From: Pseudorhizobium banfieldiae
Lineage (GTDB): Bacteria; Pseudomonadota; Alphaproteobacteria; Rhizobiales; Rhizobiaceae
Length of the DNA stretch: 64,000 bases
Direction of reading: 5' to 3'
NCBI RefSeq assembly: GCF_000967425.1
Contig: NZ_FO082820.1
Coordinates: 372,001 to 436,000 of the forward strand
Shown here: piece after piece, positions 682-22,263 of the stretch
Layout of the letters: every line of letters begins with the position of its first letter
Position numbering within the stretch: the stretch's first letter is position 1
Program-made: the position numbers and the translations under genes
Notes under the pieces: generated by a model
The model's database searches: none
What the model saw: only the letters and a program-made list of their open reading frames with translations
What the model was told of the DNA's origin: nothing

Positions 682-2712
682 TCAAACAACCTCAGTTATG
701 CGGGTGCCGTCGATCTGACTATTGTAAGTAGTGAGGTCATAGGTGGTCCCGCCAATGGTGATCACCTCTGGCTGCTTCTCTGCCCCGTCGTCGCGGTTGT
801 GGCGGGTCAGGAGGTACTGCTGCCCCACCTTCTCTGCCAGCGTTGTCATTACGACGTCCGATGCTTGCGACGTGGAGACTAGCAGGATTACTTGCGAAGC
901 AAGATTCGGCAGAAACTCAGCCACGCCTCGGCGGTAAAGTGGGTCAAGGTGACCAAATGGCGAATCTACCACGAGAGGGGCGACGGTGCCTGGCAGTAGA
1001 ATATCATCGTCATCATCCTCTCGGGTCTTCGCGAATTTGGCAATCGCGCCGGTAAATGCGAGGCCGAGCAGTTGGTTCTCGCCGGTGCTCTTTGCGACCT
1101 CCACTCCGTGCTCGTCGTAAAGTCGTAGCTGATAATCCTTATCCAGCTTCACCTTGGCTGGCTTCCGCATAAATCGTTGGACGATAAGATCAATATCCCC
1201 CTCGATTGTCGATCTGGCAGCCTCTTCTTCTGCCGAGAGTCTTGACTCGAGCCTAGCCATAAGTGCCGCCGATAGCTGCGCTCGTTTGACGTAGCGCTTG
1301 GCCGCATCAGACTTCCGGATCAACTCATCACGCTTGCGGACAAGATCAGCCGTGTCACGTTGTAGATTAGTGATCGTGGCCCGTAGCCCGGCCTTCCTGT
1401 CAATGGCTTGGTCCCGTTGCCGTTTAGCACGCTCGCGAGCCGCTTCCTTTTCAGCAATATCAGTGATTGGATTAGCTGCGAGCTCCTTGGATATGTCGGT
1501 CAACTCCGCGTCCAGGCGTTGGATCTCGCTCTCTACCCTACGTAGATCCTCGTTGTTCCGCTCAAACTCGCTCCAAGCGCGTTCCGCCCGCTGCTCAAAG
1601 CGGCCGAGTGCCTCACGCGTGGACATCACTCTCGACATCACTGCTTGATCACCAGCGGAATCGAGGAGGGTCTTGATATGCTCGTGTTCTACGCTGCCCT
1701 CAGTGACAGGGCGGCCACAGATGCACAGATTGTCCTCGAGAATCTCGTTGACGAGCTTCTTGTCGTACGGCGAAGGAAGTTTACGTCGGGTTTCCTCGGC
1801 CTGTATAACATCAGCCGCCTCGCTCATCAGTTCCTCGGCGAGGATAGCGGTAACGAAATTCTGCATCCAAGAGCTTGAGCGGGTGGCTGCTTTGGTTTTT
1901 TCGGTCTCTTTCGCCGCCAGCTGATTCTCAATGCGGTTGCGCCGAGCTTGTGCTTCCTTGGCCGGTTTCGTCCCAGCGAGCTCTTGGCCCAATCGATCCA
2001 TGCGTTTGCTTGCGGCTTCAATCTCCTCATCTATCTTTGCAAGATCGTCCTCATATCCTGCAATCTTTAGGTCGTTCTGTTCGATCTCCCGCTCGGTCGC
2101 CTGAGCTTCCGCACTAGTGTTGTCGGATGCCTGACGATTGTACTCCTGACAGGCCTTTTTTAGATCTTCCAGAGCCATTCGAGCGACCGTGGACCCTAGG
2201 ATGCCTTTAACGGCTTCACCAAACTTCTTGGCGCCGGTGGCTCCGGTATAGCGGCTGGTGGCCTCTCCATAGAAAAAGAAATGTGGCGCCATCTCTCGGG
2301 GAATAACAGAGTTGATAAAGCGATCCGGGCGGCTTTGCGAAGTTGGAACTTCACCACCTGCACGCAGATCCACCATTCGCAGCGCCTCAGTTGTCCTCGT
2401 TCGCTGATCGTAGGTCCTGCTGGCGCGGTAGCGCTTTCCATCGTGCTTAAAGTCGATCTCGACAGTCGCCTTCGTGACACCATCATGGCTAGCTGCAAAC
2501 TTGTTTACTAGCTCTTGAGGATTCTCAAATTCACTCTCGGCCGGCAGAATGTTGAAGAAGCACCAATTGATCGCGGCTAAAAGACTTGTTTTTCCTACGC
2601 CATTTTCCGCCCGGATAAGGGTGACGTTTTTCTCTGGGTCATCGGAGGTGAAGAAGGCGTTCACTCCGTAAAAGCTGCGCCAGTTCGCAAGCTCGATGCG
2701 TTGGATCAACAT
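682..2712 (-). CDS. DndD-like SMC/RecN-type ABC ATPase
   Basis: A 676-residue protein with the split ABC ATPase layout of SMC, Rad50 and DndD proteins. A Walker A motif (ENGVGKTS) lies near residue 40, and long charged coiled-coil segments span roughly 180-310 and 360-530. A CICGRP cysteine pair sits at the middle apex, like a zinc hook. A C-terminal signature (STGENQLLGLAF) is followed by Walker B (LVVDSPFGHLD). DndD in the Dnd system is an ATPase of this kind. In Ssp loci a comparable ATPase sits in the effector module downstream of sspD, which fits here. Its start codon directly abuts the stop of the 62-codon gene. It may correspond to one of the sspFGH products, but I cannot verify which letter. 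Confidence 0.8.
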   Translation of the reverse strand: MLIQRIELANWRSFYGVNAFFTSDDPEKNVTLIRAENGVGKTSLLAAINWCFFNILPAESEFENPQELVNKFAASHDGVTKATVEIDFKHDGKRYRASRTYDQRTRTTEALRMVDLRAGGEVPTSQSRPDRFINSVIPREMAPHFFFYGEATSRYTGATGAKKFGEAVKGILGSTVARMALEDLKKACQEYNRQASDNTSAEAQATEREIEQNDLKIAGYEDDLAKIDEEIEAASKRMDRLGQELAGTKPAKEAQARRNRIENQLAAKETEKTKAATRSSSWMQNFVTAILAEELMSEAADVIQAEETRRKLPSPYDKKLVNEILEDNLCICGRPVTEGSVEHEHIKTLLDSAGDQAVMSRVMSTREALGRFEQRAERAWSEFERNNEDLRRVESEIQRLDAELTDISKELAANPITDIAEKEAARERAKRQRDQAIDRKAGLRATITNLQRDTADLVRKRDELIRKSDAAKRYVKRAQLSAALMARLESRLSAEEEAARSTIEGDIDLIVQRFMRKPAKVKLDKDYQLRLYDEHGVEVAKSTGENQLLGLAFTGAIAKFAKTREDDDDDILLPGTVAPLVVDSPFGHLDPLYRRGVAEFLPNLASQVILLVSTSQASDVVMTTLAEKVGQQYLLTRHNRDDGAEKQPEVITIGGTTYDLTTYNSQIDGTRITEVV

Positions 2713-2901
2713 CTAAAAGCGATCCATATTTGCTTCGATGATCTTCTTGAGCTCAGCAGGAATACCGCGAGCGGTTTCCCCGTTATCAAAGTAATTTCGC
2801 CGCACCTTATCGAGGATCTGGCGAATTAACTTATCGAGCTCGCGTTCCTCGAACGCCTGTGAGCCAAACAACTTTTCATCAGCCACCACTACGCCCCCCA
2901 T
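2713..2901 (-). CDS. Small hypothetical protein, first gene of the effector module
   Basis: A 62-codon open frame whose TAG stop touches the ATG of the DndD-like ATPase, which argues for real translation and coupling. The product is charged and helical-looking (repeated E/K/R, with RELDKLIRQILDKV near the middle) and resembles no family I know. The start is uncertain. The ATG at 2901 lacks a ribosome site, whereas a run of six G just inside it could serve the GTG codons at 2889 and 2886. The 188 bp upstream (2902-3089), between this gene and sspD, hold no other gene I can support and may carry a promoter for the effector module. Confidence 0.5.
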   Translation of the reverse strand: MGGVVVADEKLFGSQAFEERELDKLIRQILDKVRRNYFDNGETARGIPAELKKIIEANMDRF

Positions 2902-3089
2902 TTGCGAACCCGGCCTGAGTCTATTTCAGGTAGGCTAGCTCAACTCAAACTAGTACGGAAGCCCAAGACACCCAGAAAGCAGCCAACATATTGCACGTGC
3001 CGACGTTCCAGCGTTCGGTAAGTCTGAACACAGATTCCTTACCTGCTGCTCCTTACCGCGACGGGAGCACTTTCCATGGTTTCAACCTG

Positions 3090-3938
3090 CTACTTGTGGC
3101 AAACTACGCAGCCAGCGCTCGCCTCGTCGATCCCATAGTAGTCGTCGATCGTCAGGTCTGGCTGCCCACCTGCCAGCGGGTTGACGCGCCTGCGTGCCAG
3201 GAGGCGCTTGCGGCGCTGCTCGAATTCATTCTCTATGGCCCTGACACGTTCCGGGCGTTCTAGCTCCTCTAGACTTTCGCCTTGGCTCCATGTGAACGGC
3301 GAGCCATGGTCGAGCGCGTTCTTTTCGTACCCTTTAGCCTCAGCGAACGCCGCTGGATGCTCACGCATAAGGCGAACCCACTCGATCTTCTGCTGGAAGA
3401 AACAGAACGTGCATCCGGAGCGACTCCTCCAATTGTAATATTCTGGTTCGCCAACGCCCGAACTATCCAACATTTCTATGACCTGCGCACGATCTACTCC
3501 CGCGTCGCGAAGAGGGAGGTGGACACGCATGTTGGGATGGGTCGATTGATATCCTTCTCGGCTCGGCTCGTCGGCACGTATAGCGACATAGGAATGCACG
3601 ACGGTGCCATTTTCCAGATCATCTTTGAGCCATTGCTCGAGCGGTCGCAACTTGAGCTGGCGGGTGCACCATCGCGTTTTCGCCGAAGGCAGGAAGTGGT
3701 TGTACTCCTGGAGCCAGAAGTCAAAATCGCGGTCTGGATTTAGGCGCTGGATCGGCTTTCCAAGAAATCCTTCGAGCTTATCGAGAAATGTGTAGACCTC
3801 CGTCAACTCTTTTCCCGTGTCCGTGAAGAAGTACTCAAGATGAAGCTCGGGATGGTTCTGCCGCATGTAGACCGCAAGCGCGGCGCTGTCGCGTCCGCCG
3901 GAAATGCCGAGGATATGACGTTCTGTCGGCTGGCTCAT
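3090..3938 (-). CDS. sspD: SspD-like ATP pyrophosphatase/PAPS-reductase family protein
   Basis: A 282-residue PP-loop protein of the PAPS-reductase/DndC type. The ATP pyrophosphatase P-loop (GISGGRDSAAL) lies at residues 11-21. Cysteines in RWCTRQ, SGCTFCFF and the C-terminal GCVVCHK are candidates for an Fe-S cluster or sulfur relay. In the Ssp system this protein works with the cysteine desulfurase to activate the DNA backbone and insert sulfur. Its ATG overlaps the stop of the large ATPase gene as ATGA. The alternative name would be DndC, but the neighbouring DUF4007 gene and large P-loop ATPase favour the Ssp (single-strand phosphorothioation) assignment. Confidence 0.85.
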   Translation of the reverse strand: MSQPTERHILGISGGRDSAALAVYMRQNHPELHLEYFFTDTGKELTEVYTFLDKLEGFLGKPIQRLNPDRDFDFWLQEYNHFLPSAKTRWCTRQLKLRPLEQWLKDDLENGTVVHSYVAIRADEPSREGYQSTHPNMRVHLPLRDAGVDRAQVIEMLDSSGVGEPEYYNWRSRSGCTFCFFQQKIEWVRLMREHPAAFAEAKGYEKNALDHGSPFTWSQGESLEELERPERVRAIENEFEQRRKRLLARRRVNPLAGGQPDLTIDDYYGIDEASAGCVVCHK

Positions 3939-6900
3939 GACGCCTCCGTTTTCTCTTCCGCTGAAAGGCGCTCTACTACACGAGCAAGTGCGGCAAGCTC
4001 CACTGTAGCTCCCAGATTGCTTTTTCTTATTCGGCCAATGAGCTCAGAGGCAAGTTCTTCGGCATCCTCAAGCTCAGTATTGGTAACTTCAAATGTGTGG
4101 AACACAGGGGCGGCTTCAGGATCAAGGCCGACGACGACTGAAATCGCGCTCGCCGTCGGCGCTCTTCCTTTCACAGCGGCGAATGCTTCCGCTTCTCGGA
4201 AACGTCGGGCAAGTTTTGCCAGTTCGAACACGGCCTGTTCTTGTTCCTTGTCAGACCAGCTCCTTGGTGGCTTGTGCACCAGAAGACTCGCGAGCCCTTC
4301 AATGTCTCCATTCCCCCCCGCGAATGCGCCTGCTCTCACCGCGAATGCGTCAAGCCGGAGGTCCGCCCTGACCCCGGAGGCGGTTGCTGCGCGGGGGCCA
4401 AGCCCCGCGAACGTCTCGGGGTCGACGCCAAGCTCTCTAGCGAGGCGGGTTGTAAGGTCGGCGAGCATCTTGGGGTAGGCAGCTTCCGATTCCAGTAAAG
4501 CGGATGTGACTGCGACTGCCGGATCCACTTCCTCCTTGAGCGCGTGCGTCAGGTCGGTGAACAGGAGCGCCTCGGGATCGTTCGCTTTGAGCACGATGTC
4601 ACGGACACGCTGGGCTTTCGCCGACAAAGAGGTTGTCCTCTGCGTCCAAAGTGGCAGCTTTTTGAACCGCTGGTAGAGCGCGGAGGCGACGGGGAGAGGC
4701 GCCGCTGAGATCTTTTGGCTATTGCTGGAAAGCAGCATCGCTAACCGCATCATGAACGCTTCATTCTTCTTCGAGCGAACCACGCGACGTAGTTCTACTG
4801 AAGAAGGGTTCTGCATCATACGATCGACGAAAACATCGTCGATGACCGCTTCATAAGCCCCATTTACATAGACGGCTACCGTGTCCCGATGAGCAAGCAG
4901 GAAAGCGAGTGCAAAAACCGGCATCACTCCCCGCTTCATACCGATAGGGCGGGAGGACCACTTATCGTAAAGCTCTGAGAGTTTGAATCGGCGTCCATTC
5001 TCGAAGATTGCCCATGCTGGCTTGAGGCGTTTTCCCTCGGCAGTGTCACTAGGATCTGCGAAACCCCAGATGCCATCTGCTCCTTCACGGTGGAGGCCAG
5101 AAGGTCCGAGAACGGTCAGGTAAAGGCCCTTTTCGGCAGGAAAACCTTTGATGTCGAGTGCTTCGTATGTCGCTTTTCCGACCATTGCATGGGCAAGAGC
5201 CCGCAAACCCGCCATTGCGCTCGTCGACGGCTTGTCACGATTGAGCAGTTCACTGCGTATGATCGGACTGTCGGGGTAAGCAGCATCCATGACCGCCGAT
5301 GCCACCACGTTCACGTTCGCGCCGTCGAGCTTTTCCGCCCGCGTACCCAGCATCCACCAACGCGCCGAGGACAGGCTCGCGATAAGGTCTGCCCGTGTTA
5401 GATCAACGATCTGCGAGCGTCTTGCGGAGACCTCCCGGCGAGCGATCCGGTCACCCTCAAGATGAGGGTGAGCGGCTTCGATCCGGTCAAGTGCAAAGAG
5501 ATCATCGACGTTGGCTCGCAGACCGTCCGCATTCGAGACGAGGGCGACCGCCGCAGTTAACCCGGCGAGTTCCAGCGCATCCGACAAGGCGGCTGCCATC
5601 TCCTCAATTGGCGCGTCGACAGACGTCGGGTCGGGTGTCAGCAGAACGATCAACCCCGTCGATTTTCGCCTCCTGCGTGCTAGCCGCTCCGCAGCGCTCT
5701 TCGCCCAATGTGATGGGTCAATAGGCACGTCCTGAGCGTGCTGCAGGACGACGTCCAACGTTCGCAGCGCTCCCGTGGCAAAATAATGACGCTTGGCCGC
5801 GATCGGCCCGACATCAAGTCGGGCCGGCAAGTCGATCAAGGCCTCAACCGACGCGCGATCTGTGTGGCTTCGAATTGCATCATCGAGATCAAAATCGCTT
5901 CCTGCAAAGATCGCATATCCGCCAAGCCTTGGCTGCCTTATCAGGATCGCTCGCTCGACAAGTTCCTTGAGCGCCTCATTGACCGCTGCGGATGTCTCGC
6001 CGATCGCACACAGTCGGAGCACGTCATCCACGACTGCGAGGCCCGTGCCGTTTCTGAAGAATTCAATCATAGCGGCCGCCTTGGTGAGGCGTGCGCAAAG
6101 AGGACCACGCAGGGCAGCCCTCTCGACGGCTTCCATAGCAAGTGTGAGCCTGCTGCCGTCGGGGCCTACGGCTAGGGCGGAGCCAAAGCTCGCGAGAAGG
6201 TAATCCCAAAGCTTATCGGGACCGAACCACGCGTCCGCCCCCTTTGCCGGAGCCGATATCAGATGTGCCTGGAATCCATGGGGCTCGGAGGACGACAGAA
6301 ACCCAAATACGCTCCGCTCATTCTGGGCGAACCGTTGCCGTGATACCGGACCCAAAAGTAGCGACGTCACGGGATGAAGAGGCCAGGCGCCGGTGAGAAT
6401 GGCGGTCATGCCCTCCACATCGACCGGGCGACGTACCGATATTGCGACAGCCGTTTCGCGAGCCAGTGTCGCTGCTTCGGCGGGTACGTTATCTGCGATG
6501 ACCGCACGAGAAACGAGCGCGGCTATCTCGTCTGACTGTGCGGTGAAGGGCACGTTCTGATAACGTCCCTGAACTTTGGCCCACTCGTCGCGGGCCGTCT
6601 TGCCGAGGCGTCCTGCATACTGCTCGAAGGACTGGTGGAGAATACCGACGACAACCAGATTGGCCCTTGACCGCGCTGCCCGCTCCGCAAGGTCTTGCAG
6701 TATATGCACATCCCCACCACTTGAGGTGGCGTGCTCAAAAAATTTGCCTAATTCGTCCACGATGATCAAGAGGCCACCGCATTTTCCAGCCTCGGCTTCG
6801 AGCTGCGATATTAGATAATTGGAGTCCTCCGCAGCGTTCTGCGCCTCGTTTTTTTTCCAGTTTAGCGTCTCTGCGGCTACGCGGGTCAACTCCTGATGCA

Positions 6901-7270
6901 GGTCAGCGCGACGCCCGGTGAGCGCGAGTATGCGCCATCTATTGTCATCTTCCGGAAACGCCAGACGGAAGGCATCCGCAAACTCCGCATCAACGACCTC
7001 ACTGGCGACTTGCCGCTGTTCAGGAGTTCCGGCGACTAAGCTGCCTACAAGAAGCGCTGCGCAGGATTTCCCCCCGCCATATGGGCCAGTCCAAGTAAAG
7101 GCCCTTTGTCCGGACTCGGTTATGCTCTCCGCCATTCCTAAGAGAGACTTCCGCACGGATGCCTGTAGGATATAACCACTAAGCGGCGGCGTGCCCGAAA
7201 GATCCGATTCTAATCGAGCTGACAGCGCAAATCGACGCTCGACTCGAACAATATCGATCAGTTTCCTCAT
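3935..7270 (-). CDS. sspC: SspC-like large P-loop ATPase
   Basis: A protein of 1111 residues. Walker A (GPYGGGKSCAALL) lies near residue 63 and Walker B (LLIIVDELGKFF) near 170. The remaining roughly 900 residues show no domain I can name with certainty. It is flanked by ATGA overlaps with sspB upstream and sspD downstream, so the three genes are a tightly coupled unit. In the Ssp phosphorothioation system SspC is the ATPase partner of the SspB nickase and SspD during sulfur insertion. The order A-B-C-D here matches that system. Identification rests on position, size and the P-loop, not on an alignment. Confidence 0.75.
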   Translation of the reverse strand: MRKLIDIVRVERRFALSARLESDLSGTPPLSGYILQASVRKSLLGMAESITESGQRAFTWTGPYGGGKSCAALLVGSLVAGTPEQRQVASEVVDAEFADAFRLAFPEDDNRWRILALTGRRADLHQELTRVAAETLNWKKNEAQNAAEDSNYLISQLEAEAGKCGGLLIIVDELGKFFEHATSSGGDVHILQDLAERAARSRANLVVVGILHQSFEQYAGRLGKTARDEWAKVQGRYQNVPFTAQSDEIAALVSRAVIADNVPAEAATLARETAVAISVRRPVDVEGMTAILTGAWPLHPVTSLLLGPVSRQRFAQNERSVFGFLSSSEPHGFQAHLISAPAKGADAWFGPDKLWDYLLASFGSALAVGPDGSRLTLAMEAVERAALRGPLCARLTKAAAMIEFFRNGTGLAVVDDVLRLCAIGETSAAVNEALKELVERAILIRQPRLGGYAIFAGSDFDLDDAIRSHTDRASVEALIDLPARLDVGPIAAKRHYFATGALRTLDVVLQHAQDVPIDPSHWAKSAAERLARRRRKSTGLIVLLTPDPTSVDAPIEEMAAALSDALELAGLTAAVALVSNADGLRANVDDLFALDRIEAAHPHLEGDRIARREVSARRSQIVDLTRADLIASLSSARWWMLGTRAEKLDGANVNVVASAVMDAAYPDSPIIRSELLNRDKPSTSAMAGLRALAHAMVGKATYEALDIKGFPAEKGLYLTVLGPSGLHREGADGIWGFADPSDTAEGKRLKPAWAIFENGRRFKLSELYDKWSSRPIGMKRGVMPVFALAFLLAHRDTVAVYVNGAYEAVIDDVFVDRMMQNPSSVELRRVVRSKKNEAFMMRLAMLLSSNSQKISAAPLPVASALYQRFKKLPLWTQRTTSLSAKAQRVRDIVLKANDPEALLFTDLTHALKEEVDPAVAVTSALLESEAAYPKMLADLTTRLARELGVDPETFAGLGPRAATASGVRADLRLDAFAVRAGAFAGGNGDIEGLASLLVHKPPRSWSDKEQEQAVFELAKLARRFREAEAFAAVKGRAPTASAISVVVGLDPEAAPVFHTFEVTNTELEDAEELASELIGRIRKSNLGATVELAALARVVERLSAEEKTEAS

Positions 7271-8184
7271 GAGCGGCCACCTTCGGAGAAGCTGGCGCTG
7301 AGCAGAGCGTCTTCATTCACTTCCGTAACAAGGCTAACCTGTCGCAACCCTGCCGTATCCGTCCAGATGATCGCTCCGTTAGTGATCTCACCAATGCGGG
7401 AAAGACGATTAAGCACACTATCCTCGTCGAGTTTGAATACCCGGCCTGGCGAGCCAATTCCGTATGATGCCACCTCAGCTGACAGGGTGGGGGCGTTTGT
7501 ATGCCAACGTCTCCAAAATCGCCGCAGAGCGAGAGCAAAGACTGCATCGGGCAGATTCTGCTTGGGACCGCGTACGAATTCGTATTGGTTAGCGAGACGC
7601 TGTTCGCGGACAAGGGACAACTCGTTGAGCAGCGGCTCAACGGCATCTTCAGCGCCGTCCTTTTTGGCCACGTAGCTCCGAATAAGTACCTCTGCGTCTC
7701 TTTTGAGCGTTTCGGCCGTTACGCGGGCCGACTTCGCCGTTGCTATCTCGAACAAGCCGCTAGTGATCGTCTCCCGATCGAAGACTGGTTGATTTAAGAT
7801 ATTGAAGCAATAGAAGAAGGCAGTCGACAGTTCCGGAGTCCCTGCAAGTGCAAAGTGGACCAGCCACATCGTGGCTGGATCCTCGAGGTAGGGATCATAG
7901 CCCCCGTCGTCATCGAGGATCGCTCGTCCAATTTTTGTAGGCCTTAGTTGACCCTTATCATCCTCAACGATTCCCGTTGCGATCGCCCAATGCCGAATTG
8001 AAATCGCCATATTCTTGCCAACGCCGAATTTTGCGATTGCCTCCTGCTCCTGAAATGTTCTTCTGGTGGCGTTTTCATTGGCGACGGCATCATACGCTTT
8101 CTTGAGCCACAGTAGCCTGAGGGGAAACGTTTCATGGCCGACGAACTGTGGCCGGAAATCAGAATCATGAATATCGATCAACAT
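7267..8184 (-). CDS. sspB: SspB-like DUF4007 protein (phosphorothioation nickase)
   Basis: A 305-residue protein from the ATG at 8184; an upstream frame to 8256 would overlap sspA and begins with unconvincing sequence. The start (FVGHETFPLRLLWLKKAYD) and the GVGKNMAISIRHW segment near residue 53 are typical of DUF4007. DUF4007 proteins are the SspB component of Ssp loci, reported as a DNA nickase that opens one strand for sulfur incorporation. The gene begins 10 bp after the stop of sspA, and its stop overlaps the start of sspC as ATGA. No signal peptide or membrane segment is visible. Function is transferred from the family. Confidence 0.8.
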   Translation of the reverse strand: MLIDIHDSDFRPQFVGHETFPLRLLWLKKAYDAVANENATRRTFQEQEAIAKFGVGKNMAISIRHWAIATGIVEDDKGQLRPTKIGRAILDDDGGYDPYLEDPATMWLVHFALAGTPELSTAFFYCFNILNQPVFDRETITSGLFEIATAKSARVTAETLKRDAEVLIRSYVAKKDGAEDAVEPLLNELSLVREQRLANQYEFVRGPKQNLPDAVFALALRRFWRRWHTNAPTLSAEVASYGIGSPGRVFKLDEDSVLNRLSRIGEITNGAIIWTDTAGLRQVSLVTEVNEDALLSASFSEGGRS

Positions 8185-8194
8185 GGACCGAACC

Positions 8195-9358
8195 CTACTG
8201 GCGGATGGCTCCAGCAGCAAGCGCGATTTGTTCCGCCGCCACTTCCATGTCATCAACTGTATTGAACCGAGAAATGAACATCCGAATACTGCACGAGGCC
8301 TCCTCAGCGCTCAGCCCGATAGCTGTAAGTACATGAGAGGGAGCAATATTTCCGCTTGAGCAAGCGGATCCTTCGGCCACTAGAACCCGTTCGCCAAGAC
8401 GCATTATAAGTTCCATAGCATCCACATTCAGTACTCTGATGTTCAAAGAGCCTGGTAACCGTTCGGTTCGATCGCCGTTGATCATAAACCTAACTTGCCT
8501 GCGCCTTAGACCCTCCAGAAGATGTTCCCTAAGTTTCTCGGTGCGCGAAGCGTCCTTTTCCATGGACGCGATTCTAGATGCAGCGGCTGCGCCAAAGCCG
8601 ACGATTAGCGGTACCGGCAGGGTACCAGGTCTCAAGCCGCTTTCTTGACTACCTCCAAAGAAAAGGGGGCGGGGTTTGAAAGGTGCGGCTGACGAGACGA
8701 ACAGGGCGCCAACACCCGGCGGCCCATACATCTTATGCGAGGATATACTCGCGAAATCCACGTCAGGGAACGAAGTCGGTATCTTGCCAACCGACTGTGC
8801 GGCGTCGACATGTATCATCGCTCCAGAGTTTCGGCAGATCGATAAGACGTCCGCTAACGGTTGAATTGTGCCAATTTCGTTGTTCGCGGCCATGACTGAA
8901 GCTAGCAGCGTTCGCTCATCCACCATTTCCGCGAACATTTCGACACTCAGCCTGCCGTTGCGGTCGACAGGGGCGATTCTTATTTCCCAGCCCCGCCTTC
9001 CAAGTTCTGAAGCCACGGCTAGCACGCTCTTATGCTCGATTGCGGATACAACAATGTTTCGACGCTCGCTATCATTCGGCGCGAACAACCCGGCAATCCC
9101 AAGCAGAGCGAGGTTGTTGGCTTCGGTTGCGCCAGAGGTAAAGACAATTTCTGATGGCGCAACATCGACCAGTTGTGCGATCTGTGATCGGGCTTTCTCG
9201 ACCGCGGCCGCAGCGCGTTGACCAAGCACATGGGGAGAATTTGCGTTGGCAGCGAACGACGACCACCAAGGTGACATCGCTTCTGAAGCCTCAGGAGCCA
9301 GCGGTGTCGTAGCATGGCCATCAAGATAGACCGACCGGTTGGCTGTTTCCTCTGTCAT
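8195..9358 (-). CDS. sspA: SspA/DndA-like cysteine desulfurase
   Basis: A 387-residue class V aminotransferase of the IscS/NifS family. The pyridoxal-phosphate lysine is in SSHKMYGPPG near residue 206, and the persulfide cysteine loop GSACSSGN lies near residue 330. Further family signatures are YLDGHATTPL at the N-terminus and HVDAAQSVGK. It would take sulfur from cysteine and hand it to the SspD-like protein. As the first gene of a minus-strand run that continues through sspBCD, it serves this pathway rather than general Fe-S assembly. Its ribosome site is weak (AAAGAG). The promoter must lie in the 9359-9900 region, where no clear -35/-10 pair stands out. Confidence 0.9.
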   Translation of the reverse strand: MTEETANRSVYLDGHATTPLAPEASEAMSPWWSSFAANANSPHVLGQRAAAAVEKARSQIAQLVDVAPSEIVFTSGATEANNLALLGIAGLFAPNDSERRNIVVSAIEHKSVLAVASELGRRGWEIRIAPVDRNGRLSVEMFAEMVDERTLLASVMAANNEIGTIQPLADVLSICRNSGAMIHVDAAQSVGKIPTSFPDVDFASISSHKMYGPPGVGALFVSSAAPFKPRPLFFGGSQESGLRPGTLPVPLIVGFGAAAASRIASMEKDASRTEKLREHLLEGLRRRQVRFMINGDRTERLPGSLNIRVLNVDAMELIMRLGERVLVAEGSACSSGNIAPSHVLTAIGLSAEEASCSIRMFISRFNTVDDMEVAAEQIALAAGAIRQ

Positions 9359-10348: not shown

Positions 10349-11398
10349 ATGACATCCATAATCGACCAGCGCACCGCAGCCGTTATCGAGCTCACCTCGG
10401 TGCCGACAAGACGCAAACGCGGGCGACCGTCGAAGGCGTCGATTGCAGCCGCCGCAGAAGCCATCCTGCCGCCGAACCAGGCGGTCCCTAGCAATTTGTC
10501 CTCCCGGTCTCGTCCCGCCTCTCATCCTACAGTGCCCGATCTGTCCGGTGAGCATGCTCTGTTTGATGGGCTCATCGAGGATGCAATGACGGCAATCGAA
10601 AAGGGTCCGTCCGTTCCGGACCAGGTCCTGGGACGCTATGCTCCGCTGGCGTCACTGCTCCGCTCCGTCAGCTTCCATGAGGGCAGGTTGCTGGAGAGGG
10701 GGCTGGCTGTGGTTGCGGCCCTGCATCCCGATCTTCAGGTACTGGGCAAGCCCCTGAAGCTGCCACTGGTGGAGGCAGCCGTGCAGGCGATCTCGACGAA
10801 TAGGTGGGAGGTTCTCGACGGTGTCTGCTTCGACGCCGATGCCGGGACTAAGGGAACGTACCGTCCCGACCTGGTCATCGTGAACAGGAAGACACGCAAG
10901 GCATTTGTCATCGACCTGAAGCGGTCGCTGGCGGCCTACGGCGATTCCACGCTTGCCGATCTGACGAGCCGCATGATGGCGACAGGCCTGGTGCTGCCTG
11001 ACTTTCTCTACAAGCGACACAAGCGCCTCAGCATCACCAGTGTTGACATCGCGGTGATCGACGGAGCAAGTCGCAAGAGCGACCATACCCAAGGCATCTG
11101 GAAGCTTGGCGAGCTTGACGATCTCCTCGGGCTTCCCGGCGCGGCCGCGGCCATGGAGCACCTGCGCTCGACATTCGGCGAGAGGGTGAGGGCATTGATC
11201 GAAAGCCAAGCGCTAGGAGCCCTTGGCCTGCAACAGCCATCGCCGACCGCGTCCAGCACTGCGCCCACCCGTTCGCGCAAGCATGATGGTCCGCAGGTGG
11301 AAAAGGCGGGTAGGGCCGAGGCTGGCCGGAGCAGCGATGAGACGCCCGTTGCCTGCATCGTGGTCGGTTTTGCACGTTCCGCCTCCGGTTCCGGCTGA
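10349..11398 (+). CDS. AT-hook protein with PD-(D/E)XK nuclease signature
   Basis: A 349-residue protein from the ATG at 10349 (AAAGG ribosome site 8 nt upstream); an upstream frame to 10265 lacks one. Residues 22-29 (RKRGRPSK) form an AT-hook-like minor-groove DNA-binding motif. Residues 172-193 give the PD-(D/E)XK arrangement: R172-P173-D174, a strand, then VIDLKRS with D189 and K191. A helix with E113 and E116 precedes it and could supply the fourth acidic residue. No membrane segment or signal is visible, and the C-terminal 60 residues look disordered. It heads a cassette with an AAA+ ATPase and an M41 peptidase 120 bp downstream. I know no named family for the whole protein; nuclease activity is inferred from the motif. 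Confidence 0.65.
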   Translation: MTSIIDQRTAAVIELTSVPTRRKRGRPSKASIAAAAEAILPPNQAVPSNLSSRSRPASHPTVPDLSGEHALFDGLIEDAMTAIEKGPSVPDQVLGRYAPLASLLRSVSFHEGRLLERGLAVVAALHPDLQVLGKPLKLPLVEAAVQAISTNRWEVLDGVCFDADAGTKGTYRPDLVIVNRKTRKAFVIDLKRSLAAYGDSTLADLTSRMMATGLVLPDFLYKRHKRLSITSVDIAVIDGASRKSDHTQGIWKLGELDDLLGLPGAAAAMEHLRSTFGERVRALIESQALGALGLQQPSPTASSTAPTRSRKHDGPQVEKAGRAEAGRSSDETPVACIVVGFARSASGSG

Positions 11399-11518
11399 TC
11401 GCCGATTGGTGCCCGGCGGTCTTCGATCCCGATCGGGGCCGCGGAAACCTCGAGCGCAACTCACCAAGTTCAAATCCAGTGCGACGTGGAGCCTGTGGCT
11501 CTGCGAATGGAGTAACAC

Positions 11519-13414
11519 ATGCCAAATCCCGCCAAACCAGCGGTTCCACCGCCCGACACGGGCGACGATACACTCACTCATCGCGAACGTTCCGGCACAT
11601 CGGCCGAGCGGATAGCAAATCACCTCATGAGACGCATTCGCCACGAGCAATTGTGGAAAAGGGTCGAGGTGGCTCGGTCCCTTGAACTGCTGGTGCCAAT
11701 CCGGGTCAGCATCAACGGCTACAGCCTGCGTCGCTATATTGTCGCCCGAGATCATGGGCTGTCCGGCAAGCCGATTGCCGACCTCGCCGTACTGCGGCGG
11801 ATGTTCCTCAGCGGACGCCGTGCAGTCGGGCAGGAACAGGAAATTCCCGGGGAAGGACTGACCCCTGCTGGCGAAGCGGAGGCGCTGGCCGCTGAGGGAT
11901 GCGGACATATCGAATGGCCGTATCTGCTGGCGCTGCTGAACGGTCTCCCGAGCGTCGACGAAACCGCCAACCTGGTGGTCGTGCGGCTGTTGAGCCGGGC
12001 GCTTGCCGAATGCGGGCTTCCAAAGTCATCGATGCTGTCCCGGCTCAGCCAGCCCGGCAGCCTCATTCTCATCCGCTCCGAAGTGGAGGGATTTGCCGAG
12101 AGGCTGGTGGAATTGCTGAAGGCTGGCGTGCTCTTCGACCGCAGGACGAGGATCGAACGCCAGGGCAGCCCCGCGTCCACCGGTCGTAACATGGGGATCA
12201 GGCCGGACCGGACGATCCGGCTGATCAATGACGAGGATCTTGGCGACACGGAGCACCGCGAACTGGAGCAGCAGGCGGCAGAGGCGCTTTCAAGGGGCAG
12301 CCAGGTCCTGGTTCTTCATGGAGCGGGCATCATCGTTCCACCCGCGCTGCTTGCAGCGGCAGACCTGGAACTGACCATCCGCCCGATCGACTTGCATGTG
12401 ATCCAACCTCTCCTGGACAGGCTCCATGACGGCAAAGGCGGGGAGGCGTCCTTACTCACTCCCGCAGAACTGTCCCTTCGTCGCCTCGACCATCTGGTCC
12501 TTGCCCTGCGACCATCCCGCAGTCGTGAAGATGCCGTGCGTCTCCTCGGCGAACTGGCCAATATCGAGCTGGCGTCACGAGGCGAAGGCGACGGCGGATC
12601 GTCTGGGCAGTCTGGGGCTCGCCTGGGCTCACGGAGGGGAGGGCGCAGCACGTCCACGGAGAAGTCGACAGGCTCGCGCCTCATCCAGCCCGAGGCCCTC
12701 GCCGATGCCTGCACCACCAACTCCTCCTCTTCCGACGACCCGGTTTCCCCACCAGCCAAGCCTCCCCGCCTTCCGCTGACCGTGGAAACCCTGAGCGGCT
12801 ACGGCGAAGCCAGGTCCTGGGCCCTCGACCTCAGGAGCGACCTCAAGCTCTGGAGGGACGGGGCGATCGAGTGGGAGGAGATGAGCACGCGGCTGCTTCT
12901 GTCCGGGCCACCTGGGACTGGCAAGACCACCTTCGCGCGGGCCTTGTGCAACAGCCTGCAACTGCCCATGCTGGCAACGTCCGTCGCGACATGGCTGCAG
13001 CCGAGTTACCTCGGCGATGTCCTGAAGCGCATGTCCAGGGCTTTCGAGGAAGCACAACGGAACGCACCCTCGATCCTGTTCATCGATGAATGTGATGCGA
13101 TCGGCAGCCGACAGGACAATGCAAGAGATCACGCCGACTACTGGAATACGGTCATCGCCCGGCTGCTGGAGCTGCTGGATGGCGCTGCCAGGACCAGCGG
13201 CGTCATCATCGTCGGCGCGACGAACAGGCCTGAGTTCATCGACAGGGCCCTGACGCGCTCCGGCCGCCTGGAGAAGCATGTCGTCATCCCGAAACCCGAT
13301 GTCGATGCGCTCTGCGGCATCCTTGCCCACCATGTCGGCCGCGACCTCGTCTCTGTCCTGGAAACCGCGCCTACGGCATGGGCGGGGCAGGAGAATGGGG
13401 AGGCCGCCCGATGA
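11519..13414 (+). CDS. AAA+ ATPase of FtsH/CDC48 type lacking its lid subdomain
   Basis: A 631-residue protein; start ATG 11519 has GGAG 8 nt upstream. Residues 1-350 are an unrecognised, soluble, largely helical N-terminal region, and 350-420 is a Ser/Pro-rich linker. The AAA core then shows Walker A (GPPGTGKTT, about 462-470), Walker B (LFIDECDAIG, about 520-529) and the second region of homology (IIVGATNRPEFIDRAL with SGRLEKH). The protein stops about 30 residues after the VIPKPD segment, where FtsH would continue into the lid helices. Those helices are encoded at the start of the next gene, which overlaps by ATGA. No transmembrane helix is seen, unlike FtsH. It probably unfolds substrates for the peptidase. 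Confidence 0.85.
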   Translation: MPNPAKPAVPPPDTGDDTLTHRERSGTSAERIANHLMRRIRHEQLWKRVEVARSLELLVPIRVSINGYSLRRYIVARDHGLSGKPIADLAVLRRMFLSGRRAVGQEQEIPGEGLTPAGEAEALAAEGCGHIEWPYLLALLNGLPSVDETANLVVVRLLSRALAECGLPKSSMLSRLSQPGSLILIRSEVEGFAERLVELLKAGVLFDRRTRIERQGSPASTGRNMGIRPDRTIRLINDEDLGDTEHRELEQQAAEALSRGSQVLVLHGAGIIVPPALLAAADLELTIRPIDLHVIQPLLDRLHDGKGGEASLLTPAELSLRRLDHLVLALRPSRSREDAVRLLGELANIELASRGEGDGGSSGQSGARLGSRRGGRSTSTEKSTGSRLIQPEALADACTTNSSSSDDPVSPPAKPPRLPLTVETLSGYGEARSWALDLRSDLKLWRDGAIEWEEMSTRLLLSGPPGTGKTTFARALCNSLQLPMLATSVATWLQPSYLGDVLKRMSRAFEEAQRNAPSILFIDECDAIGSRQDNARDHADYWNTVIARLLELLDGAARTSGVIIVGATNRPEFIDRALTRSGRLEKHVVIPKPDVDALCGILAHHVGRDLVSVLETAPTAWAGQENGEAAR

Positions 13415-14178
13415 GCAGCGAACGGGCTCCAGCCACCATGATTGCGGATGACCAGAGCGGTCCCTTGCGGCGGCTTGCGCTCCTGTCGGCCGGTCGCACC
13501 GGAGCCGACATCGAGCGACTGGTTCGCGAGGCCCGCCAGCGGGCGCGTCGCCAGCGCCGGTCAATGACATGGGATGATCTTGAGCGGGCTATCCGCGAAC
13601 GGCAGCCCCGTCTCCCGAGCGATCTCCGCTGGCGCGTCGCTGTCCATGAGTGCGGCCATTGCATTGCCAGCATGCGCCTCAAGTTGGGGCAGGTCCGGCA
13701 GCTCTCCATCGAGGCCTCCGAGACTGCCCTTGGCTTTCTCGCCGCCGAGGCGGAAATCCGGATCCTGACAGAAGCCCAGGCCCTCGACATCTTGTGCCTG
13801 CATCTGGCCGGACGGGCCGCCGAAGAGATGATCCTCGGCAGCGTATCCCTGGGCTCGGGGGGATATGCCGGAAGTGACCTTGCGAACGCCACCGATCTTG
13901 CTCTTGCGGTCGAGACCAGGGTCGGTTGCGGCTCCGCCTGGCCGCTCCTTTATCGCGACGCGACCATCATCCCAGCGCTGATGTTCGTGGAGCCCGGCCT
14001 CGCTGATCGTGTCAGCGCCAGGCTTGACGAAGCCTTCGACAGGGCTCGGCGTCTCGTTGCCGAGCACAGGGACGACCTGTTGGCGCTGGCCAATGCGCTT
14101 GTCGAAAGAGACACGCTGGAAGGACCCGAGATTGCCGCGCTGATGGCCACCCCGTCGTCTGCTGGCCCTTCGTTATAG
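13411..14178 (+). CDS. M41 (FtsH-type) zinc peptidase with N-terminal AAA lid
   Basis: A 255-residue protein from the ATG at 13411, which overlaps the ATPase stop as ATGA and has GGGGAGG at good spacing; an in-frame ATG at 13378 lacks this. Residues 20-61 (LALLSAGRTGADIERLVREA and following) correspond to the FtsH lid helices, normally part of the AAA module. The zinc site is HECGH (79-83), and the third ligand is most likely D156 in YAGSDLANA, at the position FtsH uses. There is no membrane segment. With the preceding ATPase it would form a two-polypeptide, soluble FtsH-like protease whose break lies between the AAA core and lid. Substrates are unknown. Confidence 0.85.
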   Translation: MSSERAPATMIADDQSGPLRRLALLSAGRTGADIERLVREARQRARRQRRSMTWDDLERAIRERQPRLPSDLRWRVAVHECGHCIASMRLKLGQVRQLSIEASETALGFLAAEAEIRILTEAQALDILCLHLAGRAAEEMILGSVSLGSGGYAGSDLANATDLALAVETRVGCGSAWPLLYRDATIIPALMFVEPGLADRVSARLDEAFDRARRLVAEHRDDLLALANALVERDTLEGPEIAALMATPSSAGPSL

Positions 14179-14273
14179 CGGCACAATCCCGACGCCGGGG
14201 CCTTCGCAGCCCAAGGCACCATTCCCAACACAACCATGCTGCCGGTCGGCAGCCAAACCTGAAGGAGAAGAAG

Positions 14274-14606
14274 ATGATCATATATGGTGACGGTCAGCGC
14301 GAGATTCGCCAACTGGAGCGGATGATAGAGAAGCTGCAGGCGCTGCTCGACGACCTGGTAGCCATCGGGGAGGGGGATCTGCCAGGCCAGGACCGCCTCG
14401 AGGATGCACCCCTCATCGACAACTGGCACCTGTCAACACGGGAAATCGTCTGCCTGCGCGGCGAGATCTCCGGTCATCCGCGGCTGGGATACGCCCCACA
14501 CGGAATAACCTCCGATCTCTGGCTGCTTGCACCGCAACGCGGCTTTGCTCGGACGATCTCACGCTACTATCGGTTGGGTTCACGAACGGAAGGGTTCGAC
14601 GGCTAG
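14274..14606 (+). CDS. Small protein, possibly DUF6634-like, end of nuclease/AAA cassette
   Basis: A 110-residue protein with a strong ribosome site (GAAGGAG) 5' of the ATG at 14274. The first half is a charged helix that may form a coiled coil (QREIRQLERMIEKLQALL). The second half contains IDNWHL, RGEISGHPRLGYA, ITSDLWLL and FARTISRYYRLG, a pattern I associate with small rhizobial proteins annotated DUF6634; that link is from memory and weak. It lies 95 bp after the peptidase gene in the same direction and likely belongs to the same cassette. No catalytic motif is visible; it could be an adaptor or regulator. Confidence 0.55.
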   Translation: MIIYGDGQREIRQLERMIEKLQALLDDLVAIGEGDLPGQDRLEDAPLIDNWHLSTREIVCLRGEISGHPRLGYAPHGITSDLWLLAPQRGFARTISRYYRLGSRTEGFDG

Positions 14607-14725: not shown

Positions 14726-14817
14726 AGATGATTTGTGGTTCTGCGATTCAAACATGCTGGCAAGCGATTCAAGGATCGAGATCGGCGTTACAGAACTAGA
14801 TATCCCCGATTCTGGGA

Positions 14818-14830
14818 CAAACGACGTTTG
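14818..14830. repeat. AAACG-N-CGTTT palindrome, copy 1
   Basis: The 13-mer CAAACGACGTTTG has perfect 6-bp arms around one base. It is the first of four related sites between 14.8 and 15.7 kb and lies 300 bp upstream of the small basic protein gene at 15131. Confidence 0.7.
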
Positions 14831-15091
14831 CGCCGCCTGACTGTAATGGCCGATAGCGTTGCGCAGGGGCTGCTCGTCCTGAGCCGCTTCCCCATCCGGG
14901 CGTCGTGATTGTTGCGAGAGAGGAACCGCGTGATGCCCACAGGCTGCCAGTGAAATTGGATCGAGTTGAAATGCCTTGCCTGCACCTCAGGTCGATTGGC
15001 GATGATTTGCGGAAATCCGATTCATCTCCCTGAAAGAGCGATTCCGATATCCAGATCAATGTTGCAGATGTCGAGAAATGCGATTCACATT

Positions 15092-15104
15092 CAAACGACG
15101 TTTG
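15092..15104. repeat. AAACG-N-CGTTT palindrome, copy 2
   Basis: A second identical CAAACGACGTTTG, 27 bp upstream of the GTG start at 15131. That spacing suits an operator that controls this gene. Confidence 0.7.
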
Positions 15105-15130
15105 CGGAAGAGAGGATAGGGAGCGGGCAG

Positions 15131-15481
15131 GTGGCAAAACGGGGCGACAAACAGGGTGACAAGCGCCTGGCGGAACAGCGCGAGCGTCAGCAGCTTTATC
15201 GCAAGCGGATCAAGACCGAGCGGCGGCCCTCACGGGACGACATCGCCCGGGTGCTGCTGCACGTGGTCATCACTAGGAGCGCTGCCAGGGACAAGCTCGA
15301 TGAGCTGGAGAAGTTCGGCGACCTGATCGTCGACAGGCTCGTGGAGCAGGGCTTCGACAAGCGTGTTTCCTATGACGCCTTCGATCAGCTGGTCGACAAG
15401 TACGTCAAGCAGGGCTGGGAGTTCAGGAGGAAAACGCATATCGGGCGTGACGTCCCGAACGACGCCGATGACCAGGAATGA
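15131..15481 (+). CDS. Small basic hypothetical protein, 116 aa
   Basis: The GTG at 15131 is preceded by GGGAG with 7-nt spacing; an in-frame ATG at 14966 would run through the repeat region and has no ribosome site. The product starts with a very basic segment (AKRGDKQGDKRLAEQRERQQ), continues as a helical region with IARVLLHVVITRSAARDKL, and ends acidic (DVPNDADDQE). No known domain is recognised. The basic start and helical body would suit a small DNA- or RNA-binding protein. A palindrome sits just upstream and two more follow downstream before the GntR gene, so it may be controlled through that motif. Confidence 0.6.
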   Translation: MAKRGDKQGDKRLAEQRERQQLYRKRIKTERRPSRDDIARVLLHVVITRSAARDKLDELEKFGDLIVDRLVEQGFDKRVSYDAFDQLVDKYVKQGWEFRRKTHIGRDVPNDADDQE

Positions 15482-15602
15482 TGCCAACGCTCTTGATGGA
15501 GAAATTTCTAGGTTCGGATCGGACGCCAGAGCTCCGGTTCTGTCGGCATCGATCAATTGGACTGCAACCGCCCGGAGCTGGCGTCAAGGGTGCTGTATTG
15601 CA

Positions 15603-15615
15603 CAAACGTCGTTTT
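15603..15615. repeat. AAACG-N-CGTTT palindrome, copy 3
   Basis: CAAACGTCGTTTT is the reverse complement of the motif with one terminal mismatch. It lies 106 bp before the GntR regulator start. Confidence 0.65.
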
Positions 15616-15648
15616 GTTGATTCATTGTATTCCCCCCGTTACTTCCTG

Positions 15649-15659
15649 AAACGGCGTTT
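15649..15659. repeat. AAACG-N-CGTTT palindrome, copy 4
   Basis: AAACGGCGTTT keeps both 5-bp arms with a different centre base. It lies 50 bp upstream of the gntR-type start codon, where it could act as an operator. Confidence 0.6.
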
Positions 15660-15708
15660 ACGACTGAATCACAAATCGCGGACCGCGAACAATCACTAGG
15701 ATGCCGGC

Positions 15709-20080: not shown

Positions 20081-22030
20081 TCAGGCTTTTCCCTTACGCG
20101 CCCATGGCGGGGCCTGCTTGTTTTCCACCCATGGGAGAAGCTGTAGCGGAGCGGGTTCGATAGTGGCGGTGATGACCGGGTATTTGGTCAACGCGCTGCG
20201 CATCAACGGGAGGCCTGCTGGATTGGTGTAGCGTGTATTTGTTTCGCTGCCCTCGCTCAGTCTTCCCGAAATATCGTCAATCACCTCTGTTGGTACGCCT
20301 GCTTGCTTCAGTGTATCCGCCATGCCGTGGCGAAGGGCATGCAGGGAGCGCTTCCACATGTTCTCCCCCAGTGCCTCCTGCATGATTGGGGTAAACGTGT
20401 CGTAGAAGCGGTCCCCAGGGTCATTCCTGGTCCTGTCGGAGAACAGGTCTGGGAACAACGCTTCGTAGCCAAGCTGCTTGATCGCCGCGTGATACTGGAC
20501 GAATCCAAGCCGAACTAGCTCATCTGGGACGGGGAGGGTCCTGTGAGATTGCGCGTTTTTCAGCCGCCGCAACGCGTTCGTTCTCAGCTGGATGACAAGC
20601 CCGTGCTGATCTTGCTCCACGTCGTCAACGGCGAGACCGGCAAACTCGTTACGTCTCGCACCAAGATAGGTGAAAAGGATCGGGAGATAGTACAGGGCAT
20701 CATGGAAGATGTGCCGGCCGGGCTTCTTTCTCCCACGCCTGCAATCCAGCGAGCCGGTGTAGATCGGACTCGCGAATATGGGTGCGATGTCCTGCGGCGA
20801 CGGCTTGTACTGCTGCAATCGGATTAGCCCCGCTTTCGGCTTCTTCGGACGCAAACCGTCAAAAGACCAGTCAGCGACATCGAAACCGTGACCGCGCACA
20901 TGCTTCAGGAAGTGTTGCAGGTTCCCGAAATGCTTGCGGATCGTTGCGGTGGAAAGACCAACCTTGGCCTTCGTTCCCGTGGCCTCGGCAGCCTTCCGCA
21001 ACCGGTCGCCTTCCGCGCGTAGTTCGAGCGCCGACATGGCTCTCATTCGGCTGCTTCGGCCCCAGTCCGTCGGAATGTCGTTGAAGTGCTGACGCAGCCG
21101 GCCAATGTGATACTGCTCGATTTGCCCGGAATGCTCGACGCCATGTTCTGCAAGGACCGACTTGAACATCCGCACCAGCGCCATGGCGTCCCGCGCGGTC
21201 GCCGGCTCCCATTCCTTTCCCATGTTCGCGATCAGCTTTTCGCATTCCTGCTCAAACTCGGAAACTGCAACAACCCGCTGTTCGCCCTCCTGACGCTTGG
21301 ATGCCGTCCCCGTGCTTCTGACGTCGGCACTGGGATTGTCCGTTCTGCTCCTCAATTTGAATTCGCTCAGGCTGCGATCCACTAGTTCGTGGCGGTCGTT
21401 GATATCCAGCAGGGCTGCTGCCCGACCTTCGAAGATTTTCGACATCGCCCGCTCGCGGTTGAGCGCGGTGTCCGGAATATCGAAGTTGTAGATCAGCCGT
21501 CGGATGCCGTCTTCGAAGCCCGTGCTACGCGCAATGGACAGTTCCGCGCGATAGTTCGCCCGGATAGCCTCGATATGGGAAACCGGAACTTCGTTCTTCA
21601 GGAGAAAGGCGAGGCCGGGACAGTTCTCTTCGAGGCTGAGGTCTGAACGGGTCCCGAACTTCGCGAGGAGCTGATATGCCCAGCCGACCTCAAGGTCGAG
21701 TTCCATCTCCATGACGTCGGCACCGCGCCCATTGCGCTTGGCCACGGTGCTGATGTCATCGAGCCTCTCCAGTTCCCTGTCCCGCTCGTGTTCGAAGAGT
21801 TTCTGGAGTTGCTGCTTGGACATCGTTTCCTGCGACCGCATTTTCAGTTCGGCCAGCCGCGTGTTGAGCTTGCGGCCGATGATCTGTGCCTTCCTATGAT
21901 CAGAACAGTGAAGGGTCAGTGAAAGCCGGCTGCCTGGTGGGCATTGAATGAAGGCGGCTGGAATGCGTGGTCGCCAGTAAAAGATGTTTCCGCGGCGGAT
22001 GAGATTCTCGACTTCGTGGCGGACAGCCAT
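20081..22030 (-). CDS. Tyrosine site-specific integrase with DUF6538-type N-terminus
   Basis: A 649-residue protein from the ATG at 22030, which begins MAVRHEVENLIRRGNIFYWR, the usual start of DUF6538 integrases; a frame to 22102 adds unlikely sequence. The catalytic domain shows the first arginine in YLGARRNEFAGL, the H-x-x-R box in LHALRHGMADTL and the tyrosine nucleophile in TNTRYTN. The middle contains a core-binding SAM-like region. It sits 160 bp from the tRNA-Gln 3' end and reads away from it, as in tRNA-targeting islands. All catalytic residues appear present, so it may be active. No excisionase gene was found in the window. Confidence 0.9.
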   Translation of the reverse strand: MAVRHEVENLIRRGNIFYWRPRIPAAFIQCPPGSRLSLTLHCSDHRKAQIIGRKLNTRLAELKMRSQETMSKQQLQKLFEHERDRELERLDDISTVAKRNGRGADVMEMELDLEVGWAYQLLAKFGTRSDLSLEENCPGLAFLLKNEVPVSHIEAIRANYRAELSIARSTGFEDGIRRLIYNFDIPDTALNRERAMSKIFEGRAAALLDINDRHELVDRSLSEFKLRSRTDNPSADVRSTGTASKRQEGEQRVVAVSEFEQECEKLIANMGKEWEPATARDAMALVRMFKSVLAEHGVEHSGQIEQYHIGRLRQHFNDIPTDWGRSSRMRAMSALELRAEGDRLRKAAEATGTKAKVGLSTATIRKHFGNLQHFLKHVRGHGFDVADWSFDGLRPKKPKAGLIRLQQYKPSPQDIAPIFASPIYTGSLDCRRGRKKPGRHIFHDALYYLPILFTYLGARRNEFAGLAVDDVEQDQHGLVIQLRTNALRRLKNAQSHRTLPVPDELVRLGFVQYHAAIKQLGYEALFPDLFSDRTRNDPGDRFYDTFTPIMQEALGENMWKRSLHALRHGMADTLKQAGVPTEVIDDISGRLSEGSETNTRYTNPAGLPLMRSALTKYPVITATIEPAPLQLLPWVENKQAPPWARKGKA

Positions 22031-22189
22031 GACGAAGATACCCTGTGTCGGGCCCAAGGTGCTTGCCGCGCCAACTCCGGCTTGGGCATCACCTTTGGGC
22101 ATCAGTTCTGGGCATCAGGTCGCCAATGATGCCAAAACGGGATCCGGCACGACTGGAAAAACAAGGAAATCAGGGCTTTTCGGGAGAAT

Positions 22190-22263
22190 TGGCTGGGGAA
22201 CCTGGATTCGAACCAGGACTAACGGAGTCAGAGTCCGTGGGTCTACCGTTAACCTATTCCCCA
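22190..22263 (-). tRNA. tRNA-Gln (anticodon CTG)
   Basis: The minus strand folds as a 74-nt tRNA including an encoded CCA end. The acceptor stem is TGGGGAA with TTCCCCA, the anticodon stem ACGGA/TCCGT holds a loop CTCTGAC, and the T-loop is GGTTCGAATCC. The anticodon CTG reads CAG (Gln). Its 3' end faces the integrase gene and is the probable attachment site. Confidence 0.95.

Follow-up and report, generated by a model that had tools for sequence, protein, structure and literature searches.

A two-piece FtsH-type protease linked to a putative PD-(D/E)xK nuclease on a rhizobial defence island

Three described systems come closest to the locus considered here. FtsH proteases combine an AAA core, a lid, and an M41 peptidase with an HExxH motif. 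In IetAS, a defence-type system, ATPase and protease are separate subunits, IetS being described as a peptidase S8 and IetA as an ATPase (PMC11878078). BrxL of BREX is described as an AAA+ factor similar to the Lon protease and used in defence (PMC10164562). The present analysis concerns a window of 64,000 nucleotides from Pseudorhizobium banfieldiae (contig NZ_FO082820.1, 372,001 to 436,000), in which a plus-strand operon encodes a putative nuclease (NUC), an AAA+ ATPase, an M41 peptidase, and a small DUF6634 protein. An earlier sequence-only reading, made without database searches, had proposed these genes as an undescribed cassette on an integrase island. The four genes exist much as described there, with minor corrections such as the likely start of the peptidase (13411). 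The operon, sited on a defence island, is interpreted here, at about even confidence, as a module in which the protease controls the nuclease and is the constant switch.

The two protease proteins of the window resemble FtsH in their AAA core, lid, and M41 peptidase with HExxH, and PF00004, PF17862, and PF01434 match above their cut-offs over the pair. However, they score only 111.8 and 74 bits against the FtsH model TIGR01241 (cut-off 600) and are two polypeptides split in the lid; furthermore, the ATPase lacks an N-terminal membrane segment, and the protease is linked to a nuclease and lies on a mobile island. The likeness to IetAS consists of an AAA+ ATPase with a separate protease subunit, and the window ATPase matches the PADLOC IetA model (2.7e-25), but this match spans the AAA core only (residues 457-601), the score of 86.4 bits lies far below the NCBIfam IetA cut-off of 510, the peptidase is of the M41 and not the S8 type, and the set contains a nuclease. 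BrxL is likewise an AAA+ protease-related factor in defence, whereas the window set has intact protease motifs and a nuclease partner, and none of its proteins matches PADLOC BrxL at E<=0.01. The ATPase matches 10 PADLOC models, mostly AAA cores, and no family of PADLOC-DB 2.0.0 was found at E<=0.01 for NUC, the peptidase, or the DUF6634 protein; the claim that no described system has this set thus agrees with the lack of any named PADLOC system among the matches of these three proteins. In the passages available of the open-licence papers searched, no system of this composition was found, which is weak evidence for absence because the search covers open-licence papers only. The protein domains are already known; the system itself would be new, with a putative function.

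The ATPase and the peptidase are an FtsH-type protease in two translationally coupled pieces. The ATPase subunit (11519..13414, plus strand; 631 aa) matches Pfam AAA at 6.6e-32 and carries GPPGTGKT (Walker A) at residue 463, ILFIDECD (Walker B) at 519, and TRSGRLE (second region of homology) at 579. The AAA module is divided inside its lid, with the core and the first part of the lid on the ATPase and the remainder on the next gene, the M41 peptidase subunit (13411..14178, plus strand), in which AAA_lid_3 (1.2e-7) and Peptidase_M41 (2.6e-17) were recognised. The HECGH motif of the peptidase lies at 13645, HExGH is kept in 104 of 105 peptidase open reading frames (ORFs), and FtsH chains of the PDB are matched, the best at 2.6e-15. 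The start is likely ATG 13411 and not 13378, because the former overlaps the ATPase stop as ATGA. Exactly this 4-nt overlap is found in 58 of 64 ATPase-peptidase pairs, including that of the window (plus-strand pairs only, with locus L003 entered twice), and the split has therefore been kept by selection; the gene models for this count, and for the motif, partner-neighbour, and CORE-side counts below, were obtained with a simple codon-bias script. A frameshift or sequencing error behind the split was ruled out by the recurrent overlap and by four named loci with one fused gene.

The complete Walker A/B/SRH core with a coupled HECGH peptidase, as described in the sequence-only reading, is accordingly borne out by domain matches, motif positions, and overlaps. 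Its statement that the protein has no membrane segment holds for the first 200 aa of the window ATPase, where the maximum 19-residue hydropathy is 1.15, and not without qualification further on: an internal hydrophobic stretch lies at residues 261-287 (hydropathy 2.03), stretches of at least 1.6 occur in 20 of 57 other split ATPases (in nine, inside the initial 170 aa of the longest ORF), and 22 fused AAA-M41 relatives also have such a stretch. The term soluble is therefore restricted to the window ATPase, which is likely to be so, the family as a whole showing mixed hydropathy. Phage AAA genes are matched by the ATPase across the AAA part only.

NUC (10349..11398, plus strand; 349 aa) is assigned to the PD-(D/E)xK-type nucleases by its conserved motif. 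P173-D174 and D189-x-K191, the triad D174, D189, and K191 having been noticed at the outset, are read directly in the protein, and among 25 aligned relatives R105, E111, E116, Y171, P173, D174, and K191 never vary, with D or E at position 189; the conserved E, D, and (D/E)xK residues of PD-(D/E)xK nucleases are thus all present. The catalytic motif is kept in 71 of 73 NUC ORFs, the window copy among them, and the two ORFs without it are short (184 and 188 aa). The same 25-row alignment reveals a conserved C-terminal VGFAR tail. The AT-hook first attributed to the nuclease is present in the window protein, as an RGRP core within RRKRGRPSK near the N-terminus, but is not a constant feature of the system, because the core occurs in just 2 of 73 NUC ORFs and in 13 of 25 alignment rows, eight times N-terminally (the window's clade) and five times C-terminally (distant rows). 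No Pfam, PADLOC, NCBIfam, or PHROGs model and, by sequence, no solved structure in the PDB was matched by the window NUC. A profile of the 25 relatives finds 135 proteins, with no Pfam domain among the 120 matches listed, and no NUC relative was found in the phage collection at E<=1e-5.

The conserved gene order in the 69 named loci retrieved with NUC is NUC, MID, ATPase, and peptidase, with a NUC ORF in 68, MID in 67, the ATPase in 64, and the peptidase in 63. Five of the six loci without a peptidase end at contig ends, and the sixth, L106, has only a short ATPase ORF; where present, the peptidase is a separate gene in 59 named loci and fused to the ATPase in the other four. The DUF6634 protein (14274..14606, plus strand; PF20339 at 35.5 bits, cut-off 27) is an optional member, found in 5 of the 69. 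Co-occurrence of the four genes therefore stands for NUC and the split protease and fails for the small protein as a fixed member; the sequence-only reading had in addition missed MID, the small protein SM5 and the DNA element CORE discussed below, and the wider family with exchangeable nucleases. Among 297 genomes of the window's family (Rhizobiaceae), the NUC profile gives 88 matches in 58 genomes, a patchy distribution. The distance from NUC to the peptidase is <=5 kb for at least 67 of the 88 NUC matches, and 56 of the best 67 peptidase matches lie <=5 kb from a NUC match, both counts being lower bounds in which 21 NUC matches and 11 listed peptidase matches stay unlinked. Protein-distance correlations, to which the kinship of the genomes contributes, reach 0.92 for the ATPase (AAA) and MID, 0.91 for AAA and the peptidase, 0.87 for NUC and the peptidase, and 0.82 for MID and the peptidase; none of 200 permutations reached any of the distance correlations determined.

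The window's genome holds further copies of NUC. One lies with MID and a partial ATPase on the minus strand of contig C2 at ~303-306 kb (end of L126, and L128), without a listed peptidase; a lone NUC lies in L127; and a second NUC-type module on another contig is accompanied by MID and SM5. Upstream of NUC, most named loci encode a protein of ~400 aa without a significant family match (UP399; L108, 6294-7493), which is absent from the DNA examined around the window copy. An HNH protein near UP399 (L070, 5178-6113; related ORFs in 29 loci) matches NF045808, a phosphorothioate-DNA restriction model, with its C-terminal part at 81 bits for a cut-off of 180.

Fused AAA-M41 proteins of other alphaproteobacteria often adjoin a different nuclease-type gene, of the GIY-YIG, metallophosphoesterase, 3'-5' exonuclease, PDDEXK_5-like, or TnsA-like type ("TnsA-like" and "DUF3102-like" are provisional labels, with no family match). 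The sample comprised 71 loci, 60 genomic and 11 on plasmids, of which six with other neighbours (L216-L221) were set aside. A codirectional nuclease- or phosphoesterase-like neighbour is present in 54 of the remaining 65, and in 50 when labels given by hand or by eye are dropped (by hand, one NUC at L195; by eye, one NUC-like and two PIN; the neighbours at plasmid loci were picked by hand from the annotation). Applied around 20 ordinary FtsH genes, the same models found such a neighbour at only one, through a weak exonuclease match, and the difference from 54 of 65 (Fisher test, 2e-10) is indicative, because the partner models derive from the same neighbourhoods, the loci are interrelated, and the control genes come from a wider bacterial range. 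Among the AAA-M41 relatives, the protease part is constant and the nuclease- or phosphoesterase-like gene beside it varies. The six loci set aside form a separate AAA-M41 group of ~900 aa, with small lipoprotein-like neighbours, not nucleases, in three (L216, L217, and L221). On the window's own chromosome, AAA-M41 genes of the fused kind occur at L203 and L207 in two nearly identical types, accompanied by a metallophosphoesterase and DUF6634.

Beyond the cassette as originally delimited lies SM5 (15131..15481, plus strand), a small protein whose N-terminus is highly basic and which has no Pfam match; it is present in 82 of 111 loci, a set in which some stretches of DNA are counted twice. Wherever both are found, its end faces at a short distance the DNA element CORE (about 15600..15675, minus strand), composed of two AAACGNCGTTT palindromes flanking GAAGTAAYGGGGGGA; in the window, the palindromes at 15604 and 15649 lie around GTAACGGGGGGA (15631-15642). 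The sequence GTAAYGGGGGGA has two sites in the 4.58-Mb genome (against one for the reversed control), both no more than ~11 kb from a nuclease-peptidase operon, and AAACGNCGTTT has seven there, with three in the control. A 27-base CORE pattern gives 41 sites in 33 of the 297 genomes and none for its reversed control, and 35 of the 41 lie <=11 kb from a NUC or split-peptidase match. The six others comprise three in G078 with SM5 (two of the three with a weak NUC match and DUF6634, no protease being found), one in G069 with an integrase only, and those of G210 and G227 with no cassette gene. At L146 and L148, CORE sites at which no protease was found stand beside Druantia type III (DruH, DruE) and BREX (BrxL, PglZ) genes.

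CORE looks like the junction of exchangeable integration modules and a defence-cargo side, because a border of homology, integration genes outside, and defence cargo inside coincide there. On the SM5 side, L079 and L084 share 99% identity as far as CORE, and they show no similarity outside it. One of four recurrent genes lies outside CORE in 46 of 55 loci; in 32, it is recognisable as a recombinase (15 tyrosine integrases and 17 serine recombinases), and 14 have only ORF752 or U259, neither with a family match. A tRNA-Gln lies beyond CORE in nine of 11 scanned loci of the window's integrase type (L098 and L099 being near copies), a tRNA-Met in three of seven serine-type loci, and a tRNA-Ser in all three others, with no tRNA in two ORF752 loci. 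At other loci, the 54 proteins scanned from the cargo side yielded matches to 62 PADLOC families (E<=1e-30), including BrxC, DruM, DrmMI, and restriction of types I, IIG, and III; the 30 proteins scanned from outside CORE match none, a zero that is partly expected because this outer set is mostly recombinases. The scan, at 59 loci with one CORE, took the longest proteins first and covered 54 of the 183 unlabelled ones inside and 30 of the 59 outside.

For the role of CORE, a recombination joint, a replication or transfer site, and an operator are all candidates. Pairs in direct orientation occur in L054 (7331 and 7431) and L097 (7584 and 12217), the latter on either side of the operon, suggestive of a joining or insertion of modules at this place. 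A structured RNA was rejected, as six folded copies gave no common structure (z -2.84 to +1.14). One of two inverted transposon ends is not supported in the window's genome, where each operon has a single GTAAYGGGGGGA, with the integrase and tRNA on the far side of CORE, and three plasmid ORF752 loci without CORE rule out that it is part of the ORF752 element. As regards a pairing of CORE with a relaxase, none is listed near three further plasmid places, one of which, L250, has SM5- and UP399-sized genes, the latter also recognised as UP399 by a search.

The island of the window carries an integrase with DUF6538 and Phage_integrase domains (20081..22102, minus strand), which shares its family with the CORE-adjacent integrase of other loci (1208 bits and 65% identity against that of L046) and lies next to a tRNA-Gln (ctg; 22190..22263, minus strand) that serves as the insertion site. 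The end of the tRNA recurs as 18-bp direct repeats 25.8 and 37.7 kb to the left of where the window starts, which indicates an extent of ~48 or ~60 kb for the island; the two candidate left ends suggest nested or successive islands. The neighbouring cargo consists of PbeC-like, SspD, SspC, SspB, and SspA genes (682..9358, minus strand; PADLOC matches), and the island carries SspABCD, PbeC-like, and PbeA genes; the integrase island of the sequence-only reading is upheld. Metabolic genes lie between the 18-bp repeats and the defence genes (L222 and L124, on the same chromosome).

In the proposed mechanism, the two protease pieces would form one ATP-driven protease, and its N-terminal region, with MID where present, would sense invasion or damage. 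The protease would then unfold and cut either its partner or an inhibitor, with the conserved C-terminal tail of NUC as a possible docking point, and NUC would thereby be turned on invading nucleic acid; the constant part would be the switch, and the effector would be the part that changes. That the pieces form a complex, that invasion or damage is sensed, and that proteolysis controls the nuclease are steps that we infer, and the module is probably directed against invaders. This reading is favoured because of the kept catalytic residues, the coupled genes, the linkage of NUC and peptidase, the exchange of partners, the defence setting, and the patchy distribution. Several observations weigh against it. 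The window copy lacks MID, with a 120-nt gap from NUC to the ATPase; the PD-(D/E)xK fold of NUC is putative; the distance correlations of NUC with AAA and MID (0.69) are no better than that with SM5 (0.67), although that with the peptidase is (0.87); and the partner comparison is subject to the dependences given above. Furthermore, such a partner is missing at 11 of the 65 AAA-M41 loci, the 16 loci of the TnsA-like group seemingly lack the catalytic lysine and may not cut DNA, and the steady link with SM5 and CORE is also compatible with a role in the life of the island itself.

Such a role, in which NUC and the protease would act at CORE for island maintenance or mobility (e.g., by cutting, replication, or remodelling of a protein-DNA complex), is considered distinctly unlikely. 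The proximity of 35 of 41 CORE sites to NUC or split-peptidase matches, the sharp homology border, and the direct repeats around the operon of L097 argue for it; by contrast, nuclease-free AAA-M41 relatives carry other partners, a pattern search found no CORE-like sequence in L004-L006, and several integrase types already serve the islands. The distance correlation of UP399 with SM5 (0.83) moreover exceeds that of either with the ATPase (0.61 and 0.72, respectively), which makes it improbable that the operon merely serves as CORE machinery. A stress or quality-control protease with an incidental nuclease neighbour is very improbable: FtsH proteases are generally quality-control enzymes, which favours this explanation, but nuclease-type neighbours at 54 of 65 loci against 1 of 20 and the correlation of NUC with the peptidase (0.87) do not fit it.

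Addiction of the toxin-antitoxin kind is a somewhat unlikely alternative, in which the protease would constantly clear a toxic NUC and loss of the island or plasmid would free NUC to damage the cell. The operons do lie on plasmids and islands, the conserved tail of NUC could be a degradation signal, partner exchange would equally suit toxins, and IetAS is classed as a toxin-antitoxin type system in the paper cited above (PMC11878078). Two free-standing NUC genes without a listed peptidase in the window's genome speak against addiction. A protease as the antidote to an enzyme toxin would, in addition, be unusual.

Returning to the protease as the constant switch, its retention while the cutter is swapped hints at an undescribed defence system. 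A broader reading is put forward tentatively, with less confidence than the module itself: a new kind of immunity in which an FtsH-type AAA+ metalloprotease, often in two pieces, would be the sensor-switch of exchangeable effectors (PD-(D/E)xK, GIY-YIG, metallophosphoesterase, and exonuclease), one branch being near-constant on tRNA-integrated Rhizobiaceae defence islands at the SM5-CORE junction. If true, a protease of the housekeeping type would have been recruited for immunity, as a switch whose nuclease effectors are interchangeable. Switches with interchangeable effectors are known for other sensors; such logic for FtsH-type proteases was not found in the literature searched. SM5 together with CORE would also provide a sequence handle to find and delimit rhizobial defence islands.

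Between the operon and SM5, the window contains two direct, equally spaced copies of a pattern of three GATTC and AAACGACGTTT (14740..15106), with palindromes at 14819 and 15093. Within the 4.58-Mb genome, CAAACGNCGTTTG is unique to this interval, with two sites and none in the reversed control.

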